Positions 19,945-32,261 of a DNA stretch of 64,000 nucleotides are shown here, one piece after another. Under the pieces are notes generated by a model that saw only the letters and a list, made by a program, of their open reading frames with translations, was not told the DNA's origin and searched no databases. The DNA lies in contig NZ_FOIS01000002.1 of assembly GCF_900110455.1 (NCBI RefSeq), forward strand, positions 620,001-684,000, in the 5' to 3' direction. Position 1 is the stretch's first letter; each line of letters begins with the position of its first letter. The translations under genes and the position numbers were made by a program. Source of the stretch: Natrinema salifodinae. Lineage in GTDB: Archaea; Halobacteriota; Halobacteria; Halobacteriales; Natrialbaceae.

Positions 19945-20952
19945 TTATAGGTCTTCGATGAAGTCGCGTCGCTGTTCCATCTTCTCACAGTCTGTACGGC
20001 GGTCGTAGTGGCGATCGAGAACTTCCGAGGAAACGTCACACCGATCGCTGACGATCTTCTCGGGGATGTCCTCGCGGAGCTGGTATGTGATCGCGCCGCG
20101 CCGGATCGTGTGCGGCGAGAGACTGCTCGGGCAGTCGTAGTAGTGCCCGTACTCCGTGGCTTCGCAGTCATTCGGATCGCGGTCGTGGGGGCACTCTTCG
20201 ATCATACAGGGCTGTGTGAGTCGGTACACCTCCGACCGAATCTGACCGGAACTCAGCCGGCCCCGATCGCTCGTGATGAGCGGCTCACGCCCGTGCTTGT
20301 CCACGACATCGTGACGGTGGAATCGGATGTACTCGTCGAGGACATCGCAGTAGTAGTCGTCGAGCGCCATCGCGCGCTCGGCCGGCTCCTGGTTCTTGAG
20401 CGGCGTGCCCGTATCGGGGCGGTGGCGAAGCCAGAAGCACTGCTCGTCGGGCTCGTAGTCCTCGAGGTCGACCGCGCGAAGACTCCCGAGGCGAATCCCT
20501 GTGTGCCAGAGGATCGCCATGATGACGTGCTCGCGGCTCGCGCGCTTGTACCGCTCGAGGTAGCCGATGATCTTGTGGGCGCGATCGGCGTCGAGTAGTT
20601 CGTCGCGGGCCTCTTCACCGCGGTCGACATCCGGCAGTTTTACCCGCTCGCGCATCCCCGGTTCGACGGCGTCGATCGACGCGCAGAACTCGAGGAACAC
20701 GCGGAGCGTCGCGAGCTGCCCGCGGAGCGTGACGATGTTCACGTCCTCCTGTCGCCACACCCGGTATTGATGGAGATGCCGGCCGGTGAGATCGTTGAGG
20801 TTATCGATGCCGACCTTCTCACACCACTCGACGAAGGCGTCAAGCCGGTACTTGTGGTTCTGGAGCGTCTTCTCGCTCACCTCGAGTTCACGGTGCGAGA
20901 CGTAGAGATCGACCGCCTCGCGGGGTGAGATCGGCTCGAGGTCGTCGCTCAT
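19945..20952 (-). CDS. int: Tyrosine integrase of the island
   Basis: This 335-residue tyrosine recombinase has both domains. The N-terminal SAM-like core-binding domain (residues 10-100) has SEKTLQNHKYRLDAFVEWCE. The catalytic domain has R154 (HTGIRLGSL), H281 and R284 (PHTIRRGAI) and nucleophile Y316 (DRHYDRRT). A cysteine-rich loop (CMIEECPHDRDPNDCEATEY) inside the catalytic domain may bind zinc, as in other haloarchaeal integrases. It lies 114 bp from the tRNA-Ala gene and points toward it, the usual arrangement for an element integrated at a tRNA. Its start overlaps the 81-aa gene by four bases. Confidence 0.93.
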   Translation of the reverse strand: MSDDLEPISPREAVDLYVSHRELEVSEKTLQNHKYRLDAFVEWCEKVGIDNLNDLTGRHLHQYRVWRQEDVNIVTLRGQLATLRVFLEFCASIDAVEPGMRERVKLPDVDRGEEARDELLDADRAHKIIGYLERYKRASREHVIMAILWHTGIRLGSLRAVDLEDYEPDEQCFWLRHRPDTGTPLKNQEPAERAMALDDYYCDVLDEYIRFHRHDVVDKHGREPLITSDRGRLSSGQIRSEVYRLTQPCMIEECPHDRDPNDCEATEYGHYYDCPSSLSPHTIRRGAITYQLREDIPEKIVSDRCDVSSEVLDRHYDRRTDCEKMEQRRDFIEDL

Positions 20953-24425: not shown

Positions 24426-25013
24426 TTAGAGCCAGCTAACTTTCTGGCGTTCTCGTTGCTGTGCCTCTGGACTGTAGCTACCCCGATAATGCTCGAGGAA
24501 GGTCTCGAGGTCGTTCCATCCGCCCCAGTCACACACTAGGAGAGGGTCGACATCGTCGGAGGCGAGCGCGGTCGCCCAGGTCCGTCGGAGATCGTGGAAC
24601 CCGAGGTGATCCCAGCCGGCGTCTCCAGTCTCGTCGTACAGCTGGTCGGCAGCCGATCGCACCCACCGCCGGAGCGACCGCGTACTGGTGATCTCGACGA
24701 GCGACGAGCTGGTCGGGGCGTCGCGCACGTCGTCGACTGTCCGGATTGTCGTCGCGAGATCGCGCGGAACCGGTGTCTCTCGGAACTTGTCGCCCTTCCC
24801 GTGCCAGACACGGAGCATCGTCCCGGCGTCGGTATCGACGATGTCCTCCGGCGCAACGTCGAGGACTTCGTGTGAGCGGAGCCCGCACCGCGCTCCGAGT
24901 GCGAACGCGATCCGCTGTTGGGTGTCGTCGGCCGCCTCAAGCAACTGTTCTACTTCGTTCTGGCTGAGCCAGACCTTCATGTCGTCGCGGTTCTCGTGCT
25001 GTTGGAGATTCAT
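24426..25013 (-). CDS. Minimal tyrosine recombinase (catalytic domain only) at the head of the cassette array
   Basis: This 195-residue tyrosine recombinase has all catalytic residues visible: R46 (CGLRSHEVL), K73 (HGKGDKF), H140 and R143 (HDLRRTW), W166 in the usual second-His place (GGWNDLETF), and nucleophile Y176 (EHYRG). Only about 17 residues precede the catalytic fold, so the N-terminal core-binding domain of Xer and phage integrases is absent. The gene reads away from the repeat array, and a 24-bp palindrome sits 3 bases before its ATG. Short integrases of this kind occur in haloarchaeal viruses and plasmids. Position and site similarity make it the candidate enzyme for the 29-bp sites. 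Confidence 0.9.
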   Translation of the reverse strand: MNLQQHENRDDMKVWLSQNEVEQLLEAADDTQQRIAFALGARCGLRSHEVLDVAPEDIVDTDAGTMLRVWHGKGDKFRETPVPRDLATTIRTVDDVRDAPTSSSLVEITSTRSLRRWVRSAADQLYDETGDAGWDHLGFHDLRRTWATALASDDVDPLLVCDWGGWNDLETFLEHYRGSYSPEAQQRERQKVSWL

Positions 25014-25015
25014 GC

Positions 25016-25039
25016 GTCCGGGTAGCCTGCATCCCGGAC
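25016..25039. promoter_or_regulatory. 24-bp palindrome at the recombinase start, related to the array sites
   Basis: GTCCGGG (25016-25022) and CCCGGAC (25033-25039) are perfect inverted repeats separated by 10 bp, touching the recombinase start codon region. The outer GTCCG/CGGAC bases match the arms of the downstream 29-bp sites, but the spacing is 2 bp shorter. It may be an operator for self-repression or an attI-like primary site. Confidence 0.5.
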
Positions 25040-25071
25040 AAGAACCGCCGGGAATCTAGTTTTTTCGGTGG

Positions 25072-25093
25072 GGCTCGAGGGAGAGATCGAGCC
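25072..25093. repeat. Inverted repeat next to array site 1
   Basis: GGCTCGA (25072-25078) and TCGAGCC (25087-25093) are perfectly complementary around 8 nt and end 5 bp before site 1. None of the other sites has it, so it could be an accessory element special to the recombinase-proximal site. CTCGAG-type words are frequent in this genome, so chance is possible. Confidence 0.35.
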
Positions 25094-25098
25094 GATTC

Positions 25099-25127
25099 TG
25101 TCCGACTCTGTATGAGTTCTCGGACAC
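25099..25127 (+). repeat. Cassette-array site 1 (recombinase-proximal)
   Basis: A 29-bp site: left arm TGTCCGACTCT, 7-bp centre GTATGAG, right arm TTCTCGGACAC. The arms share an inverted TGTCCGA/TCGGACA core. It lies 85 bp upstream of the recombinase ATG and starts the array. Confidence 0.8.
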
Positions 25128-25230
25128 CGCGCTCGCGATAACTACAGATACGAACTCATCACCAGCGAGGATAGAATATCAATACTCCCAACAATTTACC
25201 TTGTTAGAACGACATAGACAGAATAAGAGT

Positions 25231-25776
25231 GTGGCACGAACAGGAAAACGTCGGTGGCGGTATGCAACCGACACTGATCTTGAAGACGAGATCCGGTCTA
25301 ATACCCTCCCACGGGTCAAATCTGCACTCTCTGATCCCGTCAGCTCTGATTGTCCGAATAGCTGCTTGTGCCACAATGTCGATGAACGACGGATAGCAGA
25401 ACTTCTGAAGGGGTTTGCCGATGGATCGCTGTGGACTGATGGTGTCTACGTTCTCGAGTGTCGCCAACGGACGGTCACTGAAAAAGTGCTTCGCGAGGAA
25501 TTCCACCTTCAAACGGATCGAAGGTGGGCACATCGAGCACAGGAAAGAGACCGCCTATTGTATGTTGGCGTAACTCAGAGAGCCGCGACCCGATTGAAAC
25601 AACATGCTGCAGGTCGGGGACGAGGAGCCCACTTCACTCAAATCTTCCCGGCCAGTCGGCTACTTTCGATTGACTGGTACGGATCAACTTCTGAGGCCTA
25701 TCGAGCAGAACCAATTACGGCCGATGTCCTGGATGAAGTGACCAGTGATGATGTGTACGTATCGCAACCAGGGTGA
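25231..25776 (+). CDS. Array unit A: GIY-YIG-like protein
   Basis: The protein has 181 residues if the GTG at 25231 is used (a TTG at 25201 would add 10 residues). Residues about 70-165 resemble a GIY-YIG fold: DGVYVLEC for the GIY strand, then after about 30 residues LLYVGVTQRAATRLKQHAAG for the YIG strand and the catalytic-Arg helix, then GRGAHFTQIF. The tail has EAYRAE, which could hold the metal-binding Glu. A CPNSCLCHN cysteine cluster near residue 48 may bind zinc. Nuclease activity is inferred. It is the only gene between sites 1 and 2. Confidence 0.65.
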   Translation: MARTGKRRWRYATDTDLEDEIRSNTLPRVKSALSDPVSSDCPNSCLCHNVDERRIAELLKGFADGSLWTDGVYVLECRQRTVTEKVLREEFHLQTDRRWAHRAQERDRLLYVGVTQRAATRLKQHAAGRGRGAHFTQIFPASRLLSIDWYGSTSEAYRAEPITADVLDEVTSDDVYVSQPG

Positions 25777-25801
25777 TACTGAACACTACTTCACGAGCGC
25801 C

Positions 25802-25830
25802 TGTCCGGCTCTACTCTACTTCTCGGACAT
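25802..25830 (+). repeat. Cassette-array site 2
   Basis: Left arm TGTCCGGCTCT, centre ACTCTAC, right arm TTCTCGGACAT. Same length and orientation as site 1; 25 bp after the GIY-YIG-like gene stop. Confidence 0.8.
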
Positions 25831-25908
25831 GCTTCTATGGTCACTAATGACCTGTCATAACTAATATTCATCCCTAAATCTATTACAGTTTGATTCTAAC
25901 ACGATAGT

Positions 25909-26028
25909 ATGGGAACATGCCCTGGTTGCGATCGAGATGTAACGCCAGTCAATAAAGGTGGTATCGGACACGGAGTGAACGAATACGTCTGCCCAAAGTG
26001 TGATATTATTCTCGGAGTTACGTCCTGA
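25909..26028 (+). CDS. Array unit B: 39-aa zinc-ribbon protein
   Basis: A complete tiny gene: MGTCPGCDRDVTPVNKGG leads to a second knuckle VCPKCDIILG. The two CPxC knuckles (residues 4-7 and 29-32) form a classic zinc ribbon with nothing else. It fills the 243-bp interval between sites 2 and 3, so this unit is a one-gene cassette. Partner or target is unknown; such ribbons often bind nucleic acid or act as antitoxin-like adaptors. Confidence 0.65.
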   Translation: MGTCPGCDRDVTPVNKGGIGHGVNEYVCPKCDIILGVTS

Positions 26029-26073
26029 CGAATCGCAGACTAAATTCACCGGAAAATCGACTCCGGAACACCC

Positions 26074-26102
26074 TATCCGGCACTACTACGATTCTCGGAC
26101 AT
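26074..26102 (+). repeat. Cassette-array site 3
   Basis: Left arm TATCCGGCACT, centre ACTACGA, right arm TTCTCGGACAT. Same orientation; 45 bp after the zinc-ribbon gene. Confidence 0.8.
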
Positions 26103-26149
26103 CAGCATCGTCCCGTATTCTTTTAAATTAGTGAATGATATCAGACGCT

Positions 26150-26308
26150 ATGCCCGTGTTCGAGATTCTCAAGTCGCTCTTCGGCTCAGCAGTTATTGGG
26201 TTCGGTTTATTTCTCCTCGCTATGGTCTTGTTTGGGATGGTCTTAGGAGTGTTATATCTTGGCCCCCATCGACCTAATCGAAGGAGGAAACGCCATAAGA
26301 GGAGGTAG
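26150..26308 (+). CDS. Array unit C: 52-aa single-span membrane protein
   Basis: MPVFEILKSLFGSAVIGFGL continues into a long hydrophobic helix (FLLAMVLFGMVLGVLYLG) and ends in a strongly basic tail (NRRRKRHKRR). One transmembrane helix with a positive cytoplasmic end is predicted. It is convergent with the HEXXH membrane protein gene in the same unit, 41 bp apart. Small proteins of this shape include toxins and membrane-complex subunits; no evidence distinguishes them. Confidence 0.6.
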   Translation: MPVFEILKSLFGSAVIGFGLFLLAMVLFGMVLGVLYLGPHRPNRRRKRHKRR

Positions 26309-26349
26309 CAGTAGGCCTCGCGGTCAGTAGACTATCTGTACTCATCATC

Positions 26350-26736
26350 CTATTCAGGCGAATTCATCCAATCATCGGGTGTAGCTAAGGACTGAATGTC
26401 CTTCCGACTCACCAGTCCTGCAGCAACCAAAGGGAGACGAACAAAAACATCAAACCATTGGCCAGCGTGGACGAGTGGTTGCACTTCGTACCAGAATATG
26501 AGTACACCTGGCAATAGTAGAATAAGGGGTGCCCCTCCGGAGAGTCTATACACGAATGGACGCACATCTGTGCTGCTCCAGTCAACACTACATGGGAAAA
26601 TCTTGAAGCAGAATACCATCTCGTGCTGGCGAGTCCAAGGGACGCCAGCGAGGTAGTGTGTTCCCTCGTGAGCCCACATCCCGATGTAGGCCGTAGTAAA
26701 GAGTACGATGAGTGGATGCCGATTTCCGAACAACAT
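26350..26736 (-). CDS. Array unit C: membrane protein with HEXXH motif (putative metalloprotease)
   Basis: The protein has 128 residues from ATG at 26736; an open extension upstream would run through site 4 and is rejected. Predicted helices are LIVLFTTAYIGMWAHEGTHYL, APLILLLPGVLIFWYEV and VFVRLPLVAAGLV. The first contains HEGTH, a zinc-metalloprotease HEXXH, placed inside a membrane helix as in site-2-protease or DUF3267-like proteins. The third zinc ligand is not obvious. A role in membrane proteolysis is plausible but unproved. Confidence 0.6.
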   Translation of the reverse strand: MLFGNRHPLIVLFTTAYIGMWAHEGTHYLAGVPWTRQHEMVFCFKIFPCSVDWSSTDVRPFVYRLSGGAPLILLLPGVLIFWYEVQPLVHAGQWFDVFVRLPLVAAGLVSRKDIQSLATPDDWMNSPE

Positions 26737-26804
26737 CCGTCCTCTTTGCACCGTCGAATAATAATTTTCTGGATAGAGAGAAGGAATACCACTCCACGAT
26801 CGTC

Positions 26805-26833
26805 CGTCCGACTCTACCGCAATTCTCGGACAC
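26805..26833 (+). repeat. Cassette-array site 4
   Basis: Left arm CGTCCGACTCT, centre ACCGCAA, right arm TTCTCGGACAC. Same orientation; 68 bp upstream of the HEXXH gene start and 80 bp before the next gene. Confidence 0.8.
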
Positions 26834-26913
26834 AAATTTGCGGTACTAGCCATGACCAGACTCGACAGACTATATACACAGTAATTATTACATATCAAGC
26901 AGACCACTCGGTA

Positions 26914-27915
26914 ATGCGTAGCTGGTTGAGAGGTCTTGAGTGGTTTGCTGGAGAACTGTTATCGTTTCTTGGGTTTCTACTCCCCGTTTTAGCCACTTTT
27001 GCCGCTGTTTTCTTAGGTGTCTATCTCAATGGGGTTGTCGATAGGGAGCGCAAACGAGAGATGAAAATCTTCCGCCCACTTTTGGACGAGACGGGCGAAG
27101 TAAAGGACGCTTCCGCATCGAAGCCGATCCGCTCTCTGATCGAGGATGGAGAACATCGTTCGGTATTGCTCGACGTCCGTCCCGTGGAATTCCATACAAT
27201 GGATCAGACAACTCGAAAAGAACTCATGGCGTATCTGAAAGCAGTGGGACGGTTGGCGGAACTAGATGACCCCACGCTCGCGGCGAGTGCAGTGCTTCAC
27301 GAGAGCGGATACGGAAAGCACTTCACAGAACAACTCCCCTCAGATATGTTGCTTAAACCGGACGAAGGAATTCAATCAGAGAAATCGATCTCGGGGCCAG
27401 GCCCACATATTGTATCCGGCCGTCGAACCGTCATTTCCGGCCCGAATGCGGTCCTACCATCACGCTCCACGAAGGTCAGCAGTGATGCCCGTCAACCGTT
27501 ACTACCTATTTTGGTCGAAAACGCATCACTGCTCATTGAGTTGGACTCTGGTGCAGAACTTCGAGCAGTTTTCGAGTCCCATACCGATATCGATGTCGGA
27601 TATCTTGACGAGCAATGTCCGAATTGGGCTGACGAACTCTGGAAAACATTGCAGCGACCATGGAAGGGGGAGCCAATCAACTATGAGGACGGACTGGCCA
27701 GTAATGACAAAAGTTCTGATGATAAGAGCCAGCATATTGTAAAAGGGGAGGACTTTCGAGGAGTTCTCACAAGTGCAGGAATCGCGTTACAACTTCGTCG
27801 TATGAAACAACGATACCAGGTGATTAATCACGCGGAGCAGTTGCACGGACAACTTCTTGTCCGCCTATCACGACCATTGTACCATCCGAAGCGAATTCTA
27901 CTTGCCAGACACTGA
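26914..27915 (+). CDS. Array unit D: unknown membrane-anchored protein
   Basis: The protein has 333 residues from ATG at 26914; the frame is open upstream, but that part overlaps site 4 and the opposite-strand gene. An N-terminal hydrophobic stretch (ELLSFLGFLLPVLATFAAVFLGVYLNGVV) gives one or two membrane helices. A soluble part follows with a beta-rich middle (LLDVRPVEFHTMDQ, LLIELDSGAELRAVFES) and a basic helical C-terminus (LRRMKQRYQVINHAEQLHGQ). No known domain is recognised. It ends 17 bp before site 5 and is the sole gene of the unit. Confidence 0.65.
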   Translation: MRSWLRGLEWFAGELLSFLGFLLPVLATFAAVFLGVYLNGVVDRERKREMKIFRPLLDETGEVKDASASKPIRSLIEDGEHRSVLLDVRPVEFHTMDQTTRKELMAYLKAVGRLAELDDPTLAASAVLHESGYGKHFTEQLPSDMLLKPDEGIQSEKSISGPGPHIVSGRRTVISGPNAVLPSRSTKVSSDARQPLLPILVENASLLIELDSGAELRAVFESHTDIDVGYLDEQCPNWADELWKTLQRPWKGEPINYEDGLASNDKSSDDKSQHIVKGEDFRGVLTSAGIALQLRRMKQRYQVINHAEQLHGQLLVRLSRPLYHPKRILLARH

Positions 27916-27932
27916 CCACAGCCAAGACTGGC

Positions 27933-27961
27933 TATCCGACTCTATCAGTCTTCTCGGACAC
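27933..27961 (+). repeat. Cassette-array site 5
   Basis: Left arm TATCCGACTCT, centre ATCAGTC, right arm TTCTCGGACAC. Same orientation as the others. Confidence 0.8.
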
Positions 27962-27986
27962 CCCCGTCAGAGATGAGAAGATGGCT

Positions 27987-28283
27987 TTATTCTCGAAGGC
28001 GAAGTGACCCTTCAGGAACAGTATAGGTTGTTGTTCCCGACTTGAGTTCTCCGTCGACGAGTACGAGATCGTGGATTCGATATAGGGGATCAGAATCATT
28101 CACCGCTTTGCCATAGTGTTCTGAGTACGTCAGTACAGTGCCATCAGAGCGCTTCACTTCCTCTTCACCGGCGACTTTGTCTGTCACCTTAAGAACGATG
28201 GCAGGATATGGATCTGCATCATAGCCGGGTGGCGACTCAGAGATTACTATGTCTTTCCTGCTGAATTTCGGAGCCTTCTCCAT
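27987..28283 (-). CDS. Array unit E: small beta-rich protein (98 aa)
   Basis: MEKAPKFSRKDIVISESPPG is followed by short strands (YPAIVLKVTDKVAG, TVLTYSEHYGKAV, LYRIHDLVLVDGEL), resembling a small SH3-like or beta-barrel fold. No motif identifies its activity. It is the only gene between sites 5 and 6 and is read against the array direction, so unit orientation is not fixed. Confidence 0.6.
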   Translation of the reverse strand: MEKAPKFSRKDIVISESPPGYDADPYPAIVLKVTDKVAGEEEVKRSDGTVLTYSEHYGKAVNDSDPLYRIHDLVLVDGELKSGTTTYTVPEGSLRLRE

Positions 28284-28364
28284 GATGCTCTACCAGATTA
28301 TCTGACTGACAATATATAAAGAATATTGGTTGAGTTGATCTCGAACCGATCGAGACGACAGAAG

Positions 28365-28393
28365 AGTCCAATACTGGATGAATTCTCGGACAC
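28365..28393 (+). repeat. Cassette-array site 6
   Basis: Left arm AGTCCAATACT (diverged), centre GGATGAA, right arm TTCTCGGACAC (intact). Exact 29-bp spacing; ends 3 bp before the stop codon of the HEPN-like gene. Confidence 0.75.
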
Positions 28394-29496: not shown

Positions 29497-30384
29497 ATGG
29501 TACAACTAACAGATATGAACGAGCGAGAGTTGTATGCAGACGACTGGATGGGTGTCGACTGGAGCGAATGGCTATCTCTCGATCTGGTAGACGGTGATCT
29601 GACCGCAATTTCGACCGATCCAGGACTCTACCGCGTTCGCCATTGTGACCGTGACGGCCTCGAGTACATCGGTCAAACCGGTCGGAGTACACGCGGACGG
29701 GTGAGTGCATTGGCACGAAACGTCCACTCTAAGGAGATGCCGTTCCGCGATCCGCACACCGCTGCTCCGTGCCTCTGGGCAGTTCGTGATCGAGACGGAC
29801 CGGCGTTCGAAGTGTCGACCGCGACACCGTCGCTCGCTACTCACGACCAGGACCGAAAAGGCCTCGAGGAAGCACTCATCGCGATAGCACGTCGCGAAAT
29901 GGGTAAAAGTCCGACCGCGAACTTCGGTCGGATCATCCCCGGCTACTCACAGTCAGGATACCGAAGTGATGGATACGTGGGTGGCCCGCTCAAGGAGGGA
30001 GAGGCCGAATCAAACACCGAACCCGGTCGGGGGCCAGTTCCGTGGAAAAACGTCGACGACGTGACTGCATCCGATTGGATGGGTCTCGAGTGGAGTGGCC
30101 CCTATCGGCTTGAAGATCGACTTGAGCCGGATCTACCCGACGCGGGTGTCTACCGAATTTGGTACGAAGGTGACGCGCCACCACTGGCGTATATCGGCGA
30201 GACGAAAGCATTCTCACGACGACTCCGGCAACACGAGAACACGTTTGGTAGTGAGGCGCTGTTTTCAGTAGCCGTCCCAGACGGAATGGACGCAAAACAC
30301 AAGCGAACCGAGGTCGAGACTGACCTGATTGGTACGCACTATCTCGTGACACAGCGATCACCGACAGCGCAGTTCGGGAATTGA
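29497..30384 (+). CDS. Array unit G: protein with two tandem GIY-YIG-like domains
   Basis: The protein has 295 residues. Two homologous halves each begin with a W-rich lead (ADDWMGVDWSEWLSLD and ASDWMGLEWSGPYRLE) and continue into GIY-YIG strands: PGLYRVRHCD with LEYIGQTGRSTRGRV, and AGVYRIWYEG with LAYIGETKAFSRRLRQHEN. Each half keeps the YIG and the following Arg helix. Glu residues downstream (EEALIAIARREMG, EVETDLIGTHYL) may be the metal ligands. Internal duplication of a nuclease-like domain is evident. Start 29497 is used; an ATG at 29515 is an alternative. Confidence 0.65.
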   Translation: MVQLTDMNERELYADDWMGVDWSEWLSLDLVDGDLTAISTDPGLYRVRHCDRDGLEYIGQTGRSTRGRVSALARNVHSKEMPFRDPHTAAPCLWAVRDRDGPAFEVSTATPSLATHDQDRKGLEEALIAIARREMGKSPTANFGRIIPGYSQSGYRSDGYVGGPLKEGEAESNTEPGRGPVPWKNVDDVTASDWMGLEWSGPYRLEDRLEPDLPDAGVYRIWYEGDAPPLAYIGETKAFSRRLRQHENTFGSEALFSVAVPDGMDAKHKRTEVETDLIGTHYLVTQRSPTAQFGN

Positions 30385-30424: not shown

Positions 30425-30453
30425 TGTCGGACTCTGTTCCCATCCTCAGACAC
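30425..30453 (+). repeat. Cassette-array site 7
   Basis: Left arm TGTCGGACTCT, centre GTTCCCA, right arm TCCTCAGACAC. One mismatch in the left arm and two in the right arm against site 1; spacing and orientation are kept. Confidence 0.75.
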
Positions 30454-30556: not shown

Positions 30557-31531
30557 ATGCCTCATTCAGGGAAACACCCACGCGATGACGTAAACCCGCT
30601 TTTTCGGAAGCTAACCCCAATAGGATATCACTATAACGGAAGAAACAATCAGAGGTTCGTCGGAACAGGATTTTTCTATTTTCATCAGTGGGGATTAGAT
30701 GATTATGATGACCCCAGTCTTCCTTCTACTGGACCATATCTCGTCACAAATAAGCACGTAATAAATCCACCTGATAAGAGTGATCCAGATTCACTTATCA
30801 TACACATCCGCCAATCCAGAGCCATAAGGGAGACAACCCGAAAAACTGTTGACCTTTATGATAGCGATGGATCGAAAAAATGGAGAGAGCATCCCGATAA
30901 TGAGTGGATCGATATTGCAGTCCTGCCCTTAGACTTCGATATCAAGTCTGCACATGCATTTCATCGTGCAGACATTCCTAATTATGGAAATGCTGTATCT
31001 GGTGGGGATGTTGCTAAAGTAATTGGTTATCCAAACTTACTAACTGATTTCCATTACCTTCCAATAATGCGAGATGCTTTGATTTCCAGCCCCTATCAAG
31101 TAGCTTATCATGATTCACCGTATTTCTTCATTGATTCAAGGTTACATAATGGTATGAGTGGAAGCCCTGTTATTCACATTCCAGATTATTATGAACTAAA
31201 TGATGTAGAATCGGACCTTAAAATCTCAGATGAGGAAGAAGAATTGATAGATTCTCTCCGAGTCACTGGTCCAGCAAAACGGCAGAGTCCGACATTATTG
31301 GGGATCCATTCTGATGAGGAATTTGAAACAGAAAGTCGACTCTCTCTTGATGATATTAGGGACAAGATCACAGATGACAATAGTGAACCAGGTCTAGAAG
31401 ATTATCTTGAGGAACTTGATAACCGACTAATGAGTGTGGAGCAAGATTCGGGGCTAAACCGAGTTTGGCACGCAAATCTGTTGGACGATATAATACGAAA
31501 CTGCGATAATGAGGATGTGGGCACTGTCTAG
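30557..31531 (+). CDS. Array unit H: trypsin-like serine protease, C-terminus cut by an IS
   Basis: The protein has 324 residues. The chymotrypsin-fold triad is visible: His in YLVTNKHVIN (about 74), Asp in DEWIDIAVLPLD in the variant NEWIDIAVL (about 117) and Ser in HNGMSGSPVI (about 202). FVGTGFFYF is the usual first strand. The last residues before the stop (VGTV) and the TAG itself come from the left end of the IS element, so the natural C-terminus and any right-hand array site are lost. Single trypsin-like proteases occur in anti-phage modules, but a role here is inference. Confidence 0.75.
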   Translation: MPHSGKHPRDDVNPLFRKLTPIGYHYNGRNNQRFVGTGFFYFHQWGLDDYDDPSLPSTGPYLVTNKHVINPPDKSDPDSLIIHIRQSRAIRETTRKTVDLYDSDGSKKWREHPDNEWIDIAVLPLDFDIKSAHAFHRADIPNYGNAVSGGDVAKVIGYPNLLTDFHYLPIMRDALISSPYQVAYHDSPYFFIDSRLHNGMSGSPVIHIPDYYELNDVESDLKISDEEEELIDSLRVTGPAKRQSPTLLGIHSDEEFETESRLSLDDIRDKITDDNSEPGLEDYLEELDNRLMSVEQDSGLNRVWHANLLDDIIRNCDNEDVGTV

Positions 31532-32261
31532 TTAAGCACCTCCGCTGGCGTCTGTCCGTTGAGTGACTGGTGTGGTCGTTGTATGTTATAATAGTGTCCA
31601 AATTGTTCAAGCCATTCGCGGACGCTCGCCCGACTGCCCACCCACGAGTTATGGAAGCGGTCAACTCGCATTTTGAAGGTATGAAACCACTTTTCAATCA
31701 GGTTTCGATCACCGTAGTCGAGCTGACCGCTCAACCCTAACCGAGAGAGGGCAGTCAGATATCCATAGCCATCGACGAGAAATACGGTATCGGAGAGATC
31801 GTGTTTCTTGGTCAATCGATGCAGGAACGCAGCGGCTGGATCGGTACCTCGTCGTCCAAACACTGTGACATCGAGAACGAGCCGAGAGTCTATGTCTATT
31901 GCAGCGTACACCCAAGACCAGTCGCCGTTAATCTTGACAGCGGTTTCATCAATGGCGACCCGCGACGGCTTCGCCGTCCTCAGAACGCTTCGCGTTCTGA
32001 TGGGCCGCACGAGAGCTTCGCTCTCGTGGACGTCAGCGGGTCTTGTACGCTGTCAGCCAGCCGATGTACCCAGTGCCAGATTGCTTGATGAGAGCGTTTG
32101 ACGCCGATCAAGCGAAGAATTGCTTGTGTCTCTCGAAGCGAACAGCCGGTCGCGTGGAGGCGGACGGCGAACACCCTGACGGGCGTCGCCGTCCGCTCAC
32201 GCTCCCAAGCTTCATCAAATTCCGTCGCGTAGCACTCGCTGAGCAGGTCTGCGAGCGTCAT
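31528..32261 (-). pseudogene. IS6-type DDE transposase broken by a hairpin-rich insertion
   Basis: The N-terminal part (RERTATPVRVFAVRLHATGC, HQAIWHWVHRLADSVQD) holds the HTH region. The C-terminal part holds the catalytic core: first Asp in AIDETAVKINGDWSW, then the NLIEKWFHTFKMRVDRFH segment with the last Glu, and the terminal RPHQSLNGQTPAEVLN. Between them about 56 extra bases with a stop codon shift the frame, so no full-length protein can be made from this copy. The extra bases are two GCGAAGC-loop palindromes. Confidence 0.75.
31964..32028. repeat. Three consecutive GCGAAGC/GCTTCGC hairpins in the transposase gene
   Basis: Perfect palindromes at 31964-31978 (GACGG-CTTCG-CCGTC), 31981-31999 (CAGAACG-CTTCG-CGTTCTG) and 32008-32028 (CACGAGAG-CTTCG-CTCTCGTG), with the same core loop. 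The first belongs to the transposase coding sequence; the other two are the insertion that broke it. d(GCGAAGC) is known to fold into an unusually stable mini-hairpin. Confidence 0.75.

Follow-up and report, generated by a model that had tools for sequence, protein, structure and literature searches.

The 64,000-nucleotide stretch of Natrinema salifodinae DNA analysed here (the window) contains, on the minus strand at 24426..25013, a gene for a tyrosine recombinase of 195 aa that consists of the catalytic domain only (PF00589, E=5e-18). The R-K-HxxR-H/W-Y residues that define the tyrosine recombinase superfamily (PF00589) are all present, and the proposed catalytic residues R46, K73, H140, R143, W166 and Y176 are invariant in 14 aligned homologues. 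A predicted structure had a pLDDT of 50 and was hence set aside. A second tyrosine recombinase, an ordinary two-domain, XerC-like protein of 335 aa, is encoded at 19945-20952, 3.5 kb from the platform recombinase. Using an E-value below 1e-30 as the cut-off, relatives of the 195 aa recombinase were found in 115 of the 391 genomes of the class and in 42 of the 86 haloarchaeal genera sampled, as well as in named genomes including those of Natrinema, Natrialba, Halostagnicola and Salinarchaeum. Most of the loci of these relatives that were inspected have a common layout.

To the right of the recombinase gene is an array of six sites of approximately 26 bp, all in the same orientation (plus strand), with the pattern NTCCGRCNCT-N7-TTCTCGGACA. 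They are found at 25100..25125 (site 1), 25803..25828 (site 2), 26075..26100 (site 3), 26806..26831 (site 4), 27934..27959 (site 5) and 28366..28391 (site 6, with 2 mismatches). A possible degenerate seventh site in the same orientation at 30426..30451, with 3 mismatches, is doubtful and may be due to chance. The consensus obtained by direct reading is TGTCCGACTCT-N7-TTCTCGGACA, and the GTTRRRY core is absent from it. The pattern has seven matches in the window against 0.29 expected, and matches with 0–2 mismatches are confined to this locus genome-wide. The array sites are simple inverted arms, 25–26 bp in total, with a hypervariable 7 bp centre; homologous loci contain arrays of 1–7 such sites, with an opposite-strand control near zero, and the exact pattern was absent from viral contigs. 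In site 1, the left arm belongs to the platform, the right arm (TTCTCGGACA) belongs to the first cassette and the hypervariable centre is GTATGAG. The cassette on the right of site 3 (26102-26806) recurs, 96 % identical, as the first cassette of another locus (L072).

Two proteins with a GIY-YIG domain are encoded at 25201-25773, in the first cassette, and at 29497-30381, beyond the last clear site. A trypsin-like peptidase (30557-31531) matches the candidate defence family PDC-S45, and its gene adjoins a transposase-like gene (31528-32010). When a defence role for the cassettes in the window was sought, just short PDC-S14 matches and this peptidase match past the last clear site were found, and none in the cassettes proper. 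Certain 7 bp centres (ACCGCAA, CATCGAA, ACTGCAG and CTCCGAG) recur among unrelated cassettes at the sites in 25100-28391 and in the homologous arrays, seemingly above what random 7-mers would give, which leaves the impression that a limited pool may circulate. In one instance (L190, G202:C1:1403325-1413038), about ten sites of the same type and orientation were found far from the platform recombinase of that genome (G202:C1:417032), with genes for regulators, an acetyltransferase, an alpha/beta hydrolase and a methyltransferase between them. This cluster appears to be the counterpart of an integron CALIN. In L218/L219, one cassette carries mixed site types.

The 86 bp separating the recombinase start codon from site 1 contain two inverted repeats, both of which are present as described in an earlier note on this DNA. 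One, here called P1, is a 24 bp palindrome, GTCCGGG-N10-CCCGGAC, at 25016-25039. The other is GGCTCGA-N8-TCGAGCC at 25072-25093. P1 had been described as covering the recombinase start region; it in fact lies beside the start, with a gap of 2 bp between it and the start codon (CAT, 25011-25013). The second inverted repeat ends 6 bp before site 1, which begins at 25100, and not 5 bp before it as had been stated. Taken singly, neither inverted repeat stands out: the window contains 331 perfect 7 bp inverted repeats with loops of 3–20, compared with 176 in shuffled sequences, and about 6 % of random 86 bp stretches include at least one. The arrangement GTCCG-N14-CGGAC occurs once in the window. 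As neither repeat is unusual alone, a comparison was needed to make the case for P1.

The regions from the start codon to site 1 of 40 homologues were aligned. For the seven pairs of P1, 81 % of cells were kept, compared with 11–34 % when the pairing was slid by 1–3 bp, and four of the five outer GTCCG/CGGAC pairs were kept in 39 or 40 of the 40 homologues, with the fifth kept in 32. In nearly 80 automatically assigned haloarchaeal homologues, P1 was located 0–12 bp upstream of the recombinase start codon, and the palindrome is conserved there in near and remote relatives alike. In the second inverted repeat, 41 % of cells were kept compared with 14–28 % when slid; the best pair was kept in 23 of the 40, and no pair in more than 58 % of them. 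P1 is thus, on this alignment, real and conserved, while the second inverted repeat, broken in most homologues, is judged to be a chance palindrome without function as such because it is not conserved in related loci. The earlier note had suggested this comparison and had named a lack of conservation as the outcome that would speak against its proposal. P1 passed, and the second inverted repeat did not. Its candidacy as an operator or a part of the platform was dropped, the pairing being broken across the 40 homologues. In one locus (L055) with a recombinase copy at 73 % identity, P1 is interrupted by an insert carrying inverted repeats of its own. In the phage collection, the sole near-full-length match to the recombinase was from Haloferax phage LSV-48N (36 %), and no P1-like layout was found at the start of its integrase gene.

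The likeness of P1 to the array arms, which share GTCCG/CGGAC with it over a span 2 bp longer, had been pointed out in the earlier note, and is attributed here to the same protein very probably binding both. In several separate clades the arms of the sites have changed, and P1 has changed with them. The mirrored changes are TTCCG (L109, L110, L120 and L121), GTCG (L127 and L129), GTAGG (L150 and L158), GTCCAA (L154 and L159), GTCTG (L157) and GCAC (L138, L140 and L144). A permutation test that involved no hand assignment was performed on 17 representatives obtained by 60 % clustering (<60 % identical to one another). The longest string common to the start-codon zone and the site 1 zone of the same locus had a mean length of 6.35, compared with 5.44 when permuted, and only 10 of 20000 permutations gave a value as high. 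The same test applied to the spacer between P1 and site 1 showed no effect (z 0.1). Because the P1 arms track the site arms, binding by the recombinase is the simplest reading, and this co-variation strongly suggests that P1 is a putative site to which the recombinase itself very probably binds. Related recombinases with differing site arms, namely GTCCTCGA, GCAC, GTAGG, GTCCAA and GTCG (L132-L137, L138/L140/L144, L150/L152/L158, L154-L156/L159 and L127/L129), form a family of recombinase-site pairs, and the G192 genome carries two specificities.

P1 had been proposed as an attI-like primary site. It spans 24 bp (23 or 25 in a few cases) compared with 25–26 bp for site 1, and in the 40-homologue alignment its centre is conserved (1.7 bits at 25026 and 2.0 bits at 25029), whereas the site 1 centre has 0–0.6 bits. 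Within the genus, P1-like copies number a few per genome and most are 81–86 bp from a site, unlike the scattered array sites; some have no listed site nearby and are assumed to be relict platforms. Exchange is seen at site 1. In 58 pairs of loci with left flanks at least 90 % identical (mostly platforms) and different first cassettes, the 7 bp centre of site 1 differs at 4.07 positions on average; the corresponding values for the left and right arms are 0.05 and 0.19 of 10. Because exchange is visible there across these pairs, site 1, and not P1, appears to be the crossover site and the equivalent of attI. P1 was rejected for this role, as its centre shows no turnover, its span is different, and its copies are not scattered but stay with the recombinase.

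The centres move with either neighbour or with none: with the left cassette in the comparison of L072 with this window and in L195/L197, with the right cassette in L205/L212 and L067/L193, and with neither side in L066/L202. Such mobility, seen by comparing loci and not as single events, fits a Tn916-like two-strand exchange in which the centre is unmatched. An integron-like single-point crossover was first hinted at by the cassette shared between L072 and this window, which kept its right centre, and was rejected as centres turn over on near-identical platforms.

The distance from the left arm of P1 to the left arm of site 1 is 83–85 bp in most homologues. It is 94–96 bp in L077, L262/L043, L095, L051, L053, L118, L122, L160, L285 and L286, 105 bp in L045, L272 and L159, and 113–114 bp in L154, L155 and L156, values that are close to 83–85 bp plus one, two or three helical turns. 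Two assigned loci depart from these values (L103, 81 bp, and L054, 86 bp). The spacing classes require 10 changes on the recombinase tree. For eight length-changing lineages, chosen as independent by our own reading of that tree, the mean cosine at a period of 10.5 bp was 0.97, a value reached in none of 200000 random draws (two of 200000 when three related lineages were merged into one), in a test limited to loci for which a P1/site 1 pair could be assigned, which was not possible with confidence for about 15 distant homologues. For some loci with weak scores, among them L045 (105 bp), the assignment was manual. In L077, L262/L043 and L045, which are closely related cases, the extra 10–21 bp lies between the promoter and site 1, and the phasing therefore does not appear to be a by-product of promoter spacing. 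On these distances, P1 and site 1 would be on the same face of the helix, eight turns apart in this window. The earlier proposal that P1 is part of the platform is supported to this extent, though not as the crossover site.

The promoter in question is the sequence CCACCGAAAAAACTAGAT at 25054..25071 on the minus strand, which resembles a haloarchaeal BRE/TATA pair and which we take, by this resemblance, to be the promoter of the recombinase gene. Most positions in 25063-25070 have 1.8–2.0 bits in the 40-homologue alignment. The transcript would be expected to start near 25032, approximately 26 bp downstream of the motif and inside P1. P1 is thus located between a conserved promoter motif and the start codon, with arms that track the sites, which favours the earlier suggestion of a self-repression operator as far as position goes; repression itself we infer. 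Recombinase bound at P1 would cover the start region of its own transcript and could block initiation, leading to self-repression. It would probably also contact recombinase bound at site 1, closing a loop of approximately 85 bp that holds the promoter. Such a loop would tighten repression and might single out site 1 as the place where incoming cassettes are preferentially accepted. In this account the crossover happens there rather than at P1, and the second inverted repeat is uninvolved. The loop is proposed because of the location of P1 at the start region together with its phasing to site 1. Comparison shows that P1 is conserved, that its arms follow specificity, that its centre is fixed and that its spacing to site 1 is phased. 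Very probably, P1 is both an operator bound by the recombinase and an accessory site, in phase with site 1 on the face of the helix and lying over the start region of the promoter. That it is also looped to site 1, giving self-repression together with a prepared acceptor, we consider the likelier account, with reasonable rather than high confidence.

The recombinase could instead repress its own gene from P1 without any contact to site 1. In the assigned homologues, P1 lies between the promoter motif and the start codon and its arms co-vary with the sites, both of which speak for such an operator. However, no constant distance to site 1 would be required of an operator of this kind, whereas whole helical turns are kept and the inserts fall outside the interval between promoter and P1, and we regard a pure operator as rather unlikely. 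Conversely, P1 could be an accessory recombination element that regulates little or nothing, comparable to the attI1 DR repeats or the arm sites of phage integrases. Phasing to site 1 and a span and centre unlike those of the crossover sites are in keeping with this, and traces much like those of repression and a loop would be expected from an element with a purely architectural function in recombination. An accessory site could lie elsewhere, but P1 is always directly at the start codon, on the downstream side of the promoter motif, however far away site 1 is, and this role on its own seems improbable.

Two further readings appear very improbable. The GTCCG/CGGAC common to P1 and the array sites is what led the earlier note to a primary attI-like crossover site, with the second inverted repeat as part of a platform or operator. 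Besides the shorter span, the conserved centre at P1 against the exchanged one at site 1, the location of the P1-like copies in the genus mostly beside platforms and the broken second inverted repeat, recombination between P1 and site 1 would remove just about 85 bp. Equally hard to credit is an unrelated host regulator that binds P1, its likeness to the sites being due to chance, as the arms of site 1 have changed in sequence several times independently and P1 has followed them. The combination of operator and accessory site, looped to site 1, is the reading retained here.

Integrons are the textbook example of a device that gathers genes as cassettes. No published description of arrays of the present type in haloarchaea was found in the open-access literature. 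A wider possibility, which we put forward tentatively and consider somewhat less than even, is that these loci represent a widespread, undescribed haloarchaeal cassette-capture system that originated separately from integrons. In it, a minimal tyrosine recombinase would loop an operator palindrome to a phased platform site, silencing itself while readying the acceptor, and would carry out a two-strand exchange that ignores the 7 bp centre. If so, there would be a second cassette device that uses another recombinase and another kind of site, and whose recombinase was found in nearly half of the sampled haloarchaeal genera. This would point to more than one origin of gene-cassette platforms and provide a natural comparison for platform silencing and the choice of entry site. 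The co-varying pairs of recombinase and palindrome would also be a ready set of recombinase specificities, testable in laboratory haloarchaea.

The resemblance to integrons lies in the overall organization. The recombinase gene adjoins the same-orientation cassette array and points away from it, a single platform site is found beside the gene, the sites separate unrelated genes, and clusters of sites occur far from a platform recombinase, as CALINs do. The components differ. The integron-integrase model TIGR02249 gives the recombinase 37.4 bits against a cut-off of 265, over residues 3–96 only, and in a protein of 195 aa in all no extra segment was seen near HxxR, where the IntI-specific domain (near patch III) would be expected. 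The sites are 25–26 bp inverted arms without the R''/L''/L'/R' boxes and the RYYYAAC / GTTRRRY of attC. The 7 bp centres stay with neither side, unlike in the single-strand attC x attI exchange, and the 58 locus pairs do not fit a single-strand, single-point crossover in which the platform half is left unaltered. As it departs from integrons in the IntI family score and domain, in the attC structure and in the single-point crossover, the locus appears to work like an integron but is not one. The integrons reported from archaea are IntI-type, and the report makes no mention of Halobacteria or haloarchaea (PMC9668308). In attI1 of class 1 integrons, the accessory sites DR1 and DR2 are extra integrase-binding sites beside the crossover site (PMC8946536). 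P1 differs from these in being a palindrome at the recombinase start codon that is expected to act as an operator and lies 8–11 helical turns away from the crossover site.

Parallels for the individual parts are also found in other tyrosine recombinase systems. The attachment region of self-regulating phages such as P2 overlaps the int promoter, and the integrase probably regulates its own gene from a neighbouring binding site. The recombinase described here would similarly act on its own gene from an adjoining site, but that site is a separate, non-recombining palindrome phased with the crossover site. Tyrosine recombinases of the Tn916 / CTnDOT type act on coupling sequences, where a short variable centre lies between conserved arms and the partners need not match. 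The array sites likewise have a variable centre flanked by conserved arms; in Tn916 and CTnDOT, one large element moves with its own integrase, whereas here many small cassettes would be moved by a recombinase that stays in place.
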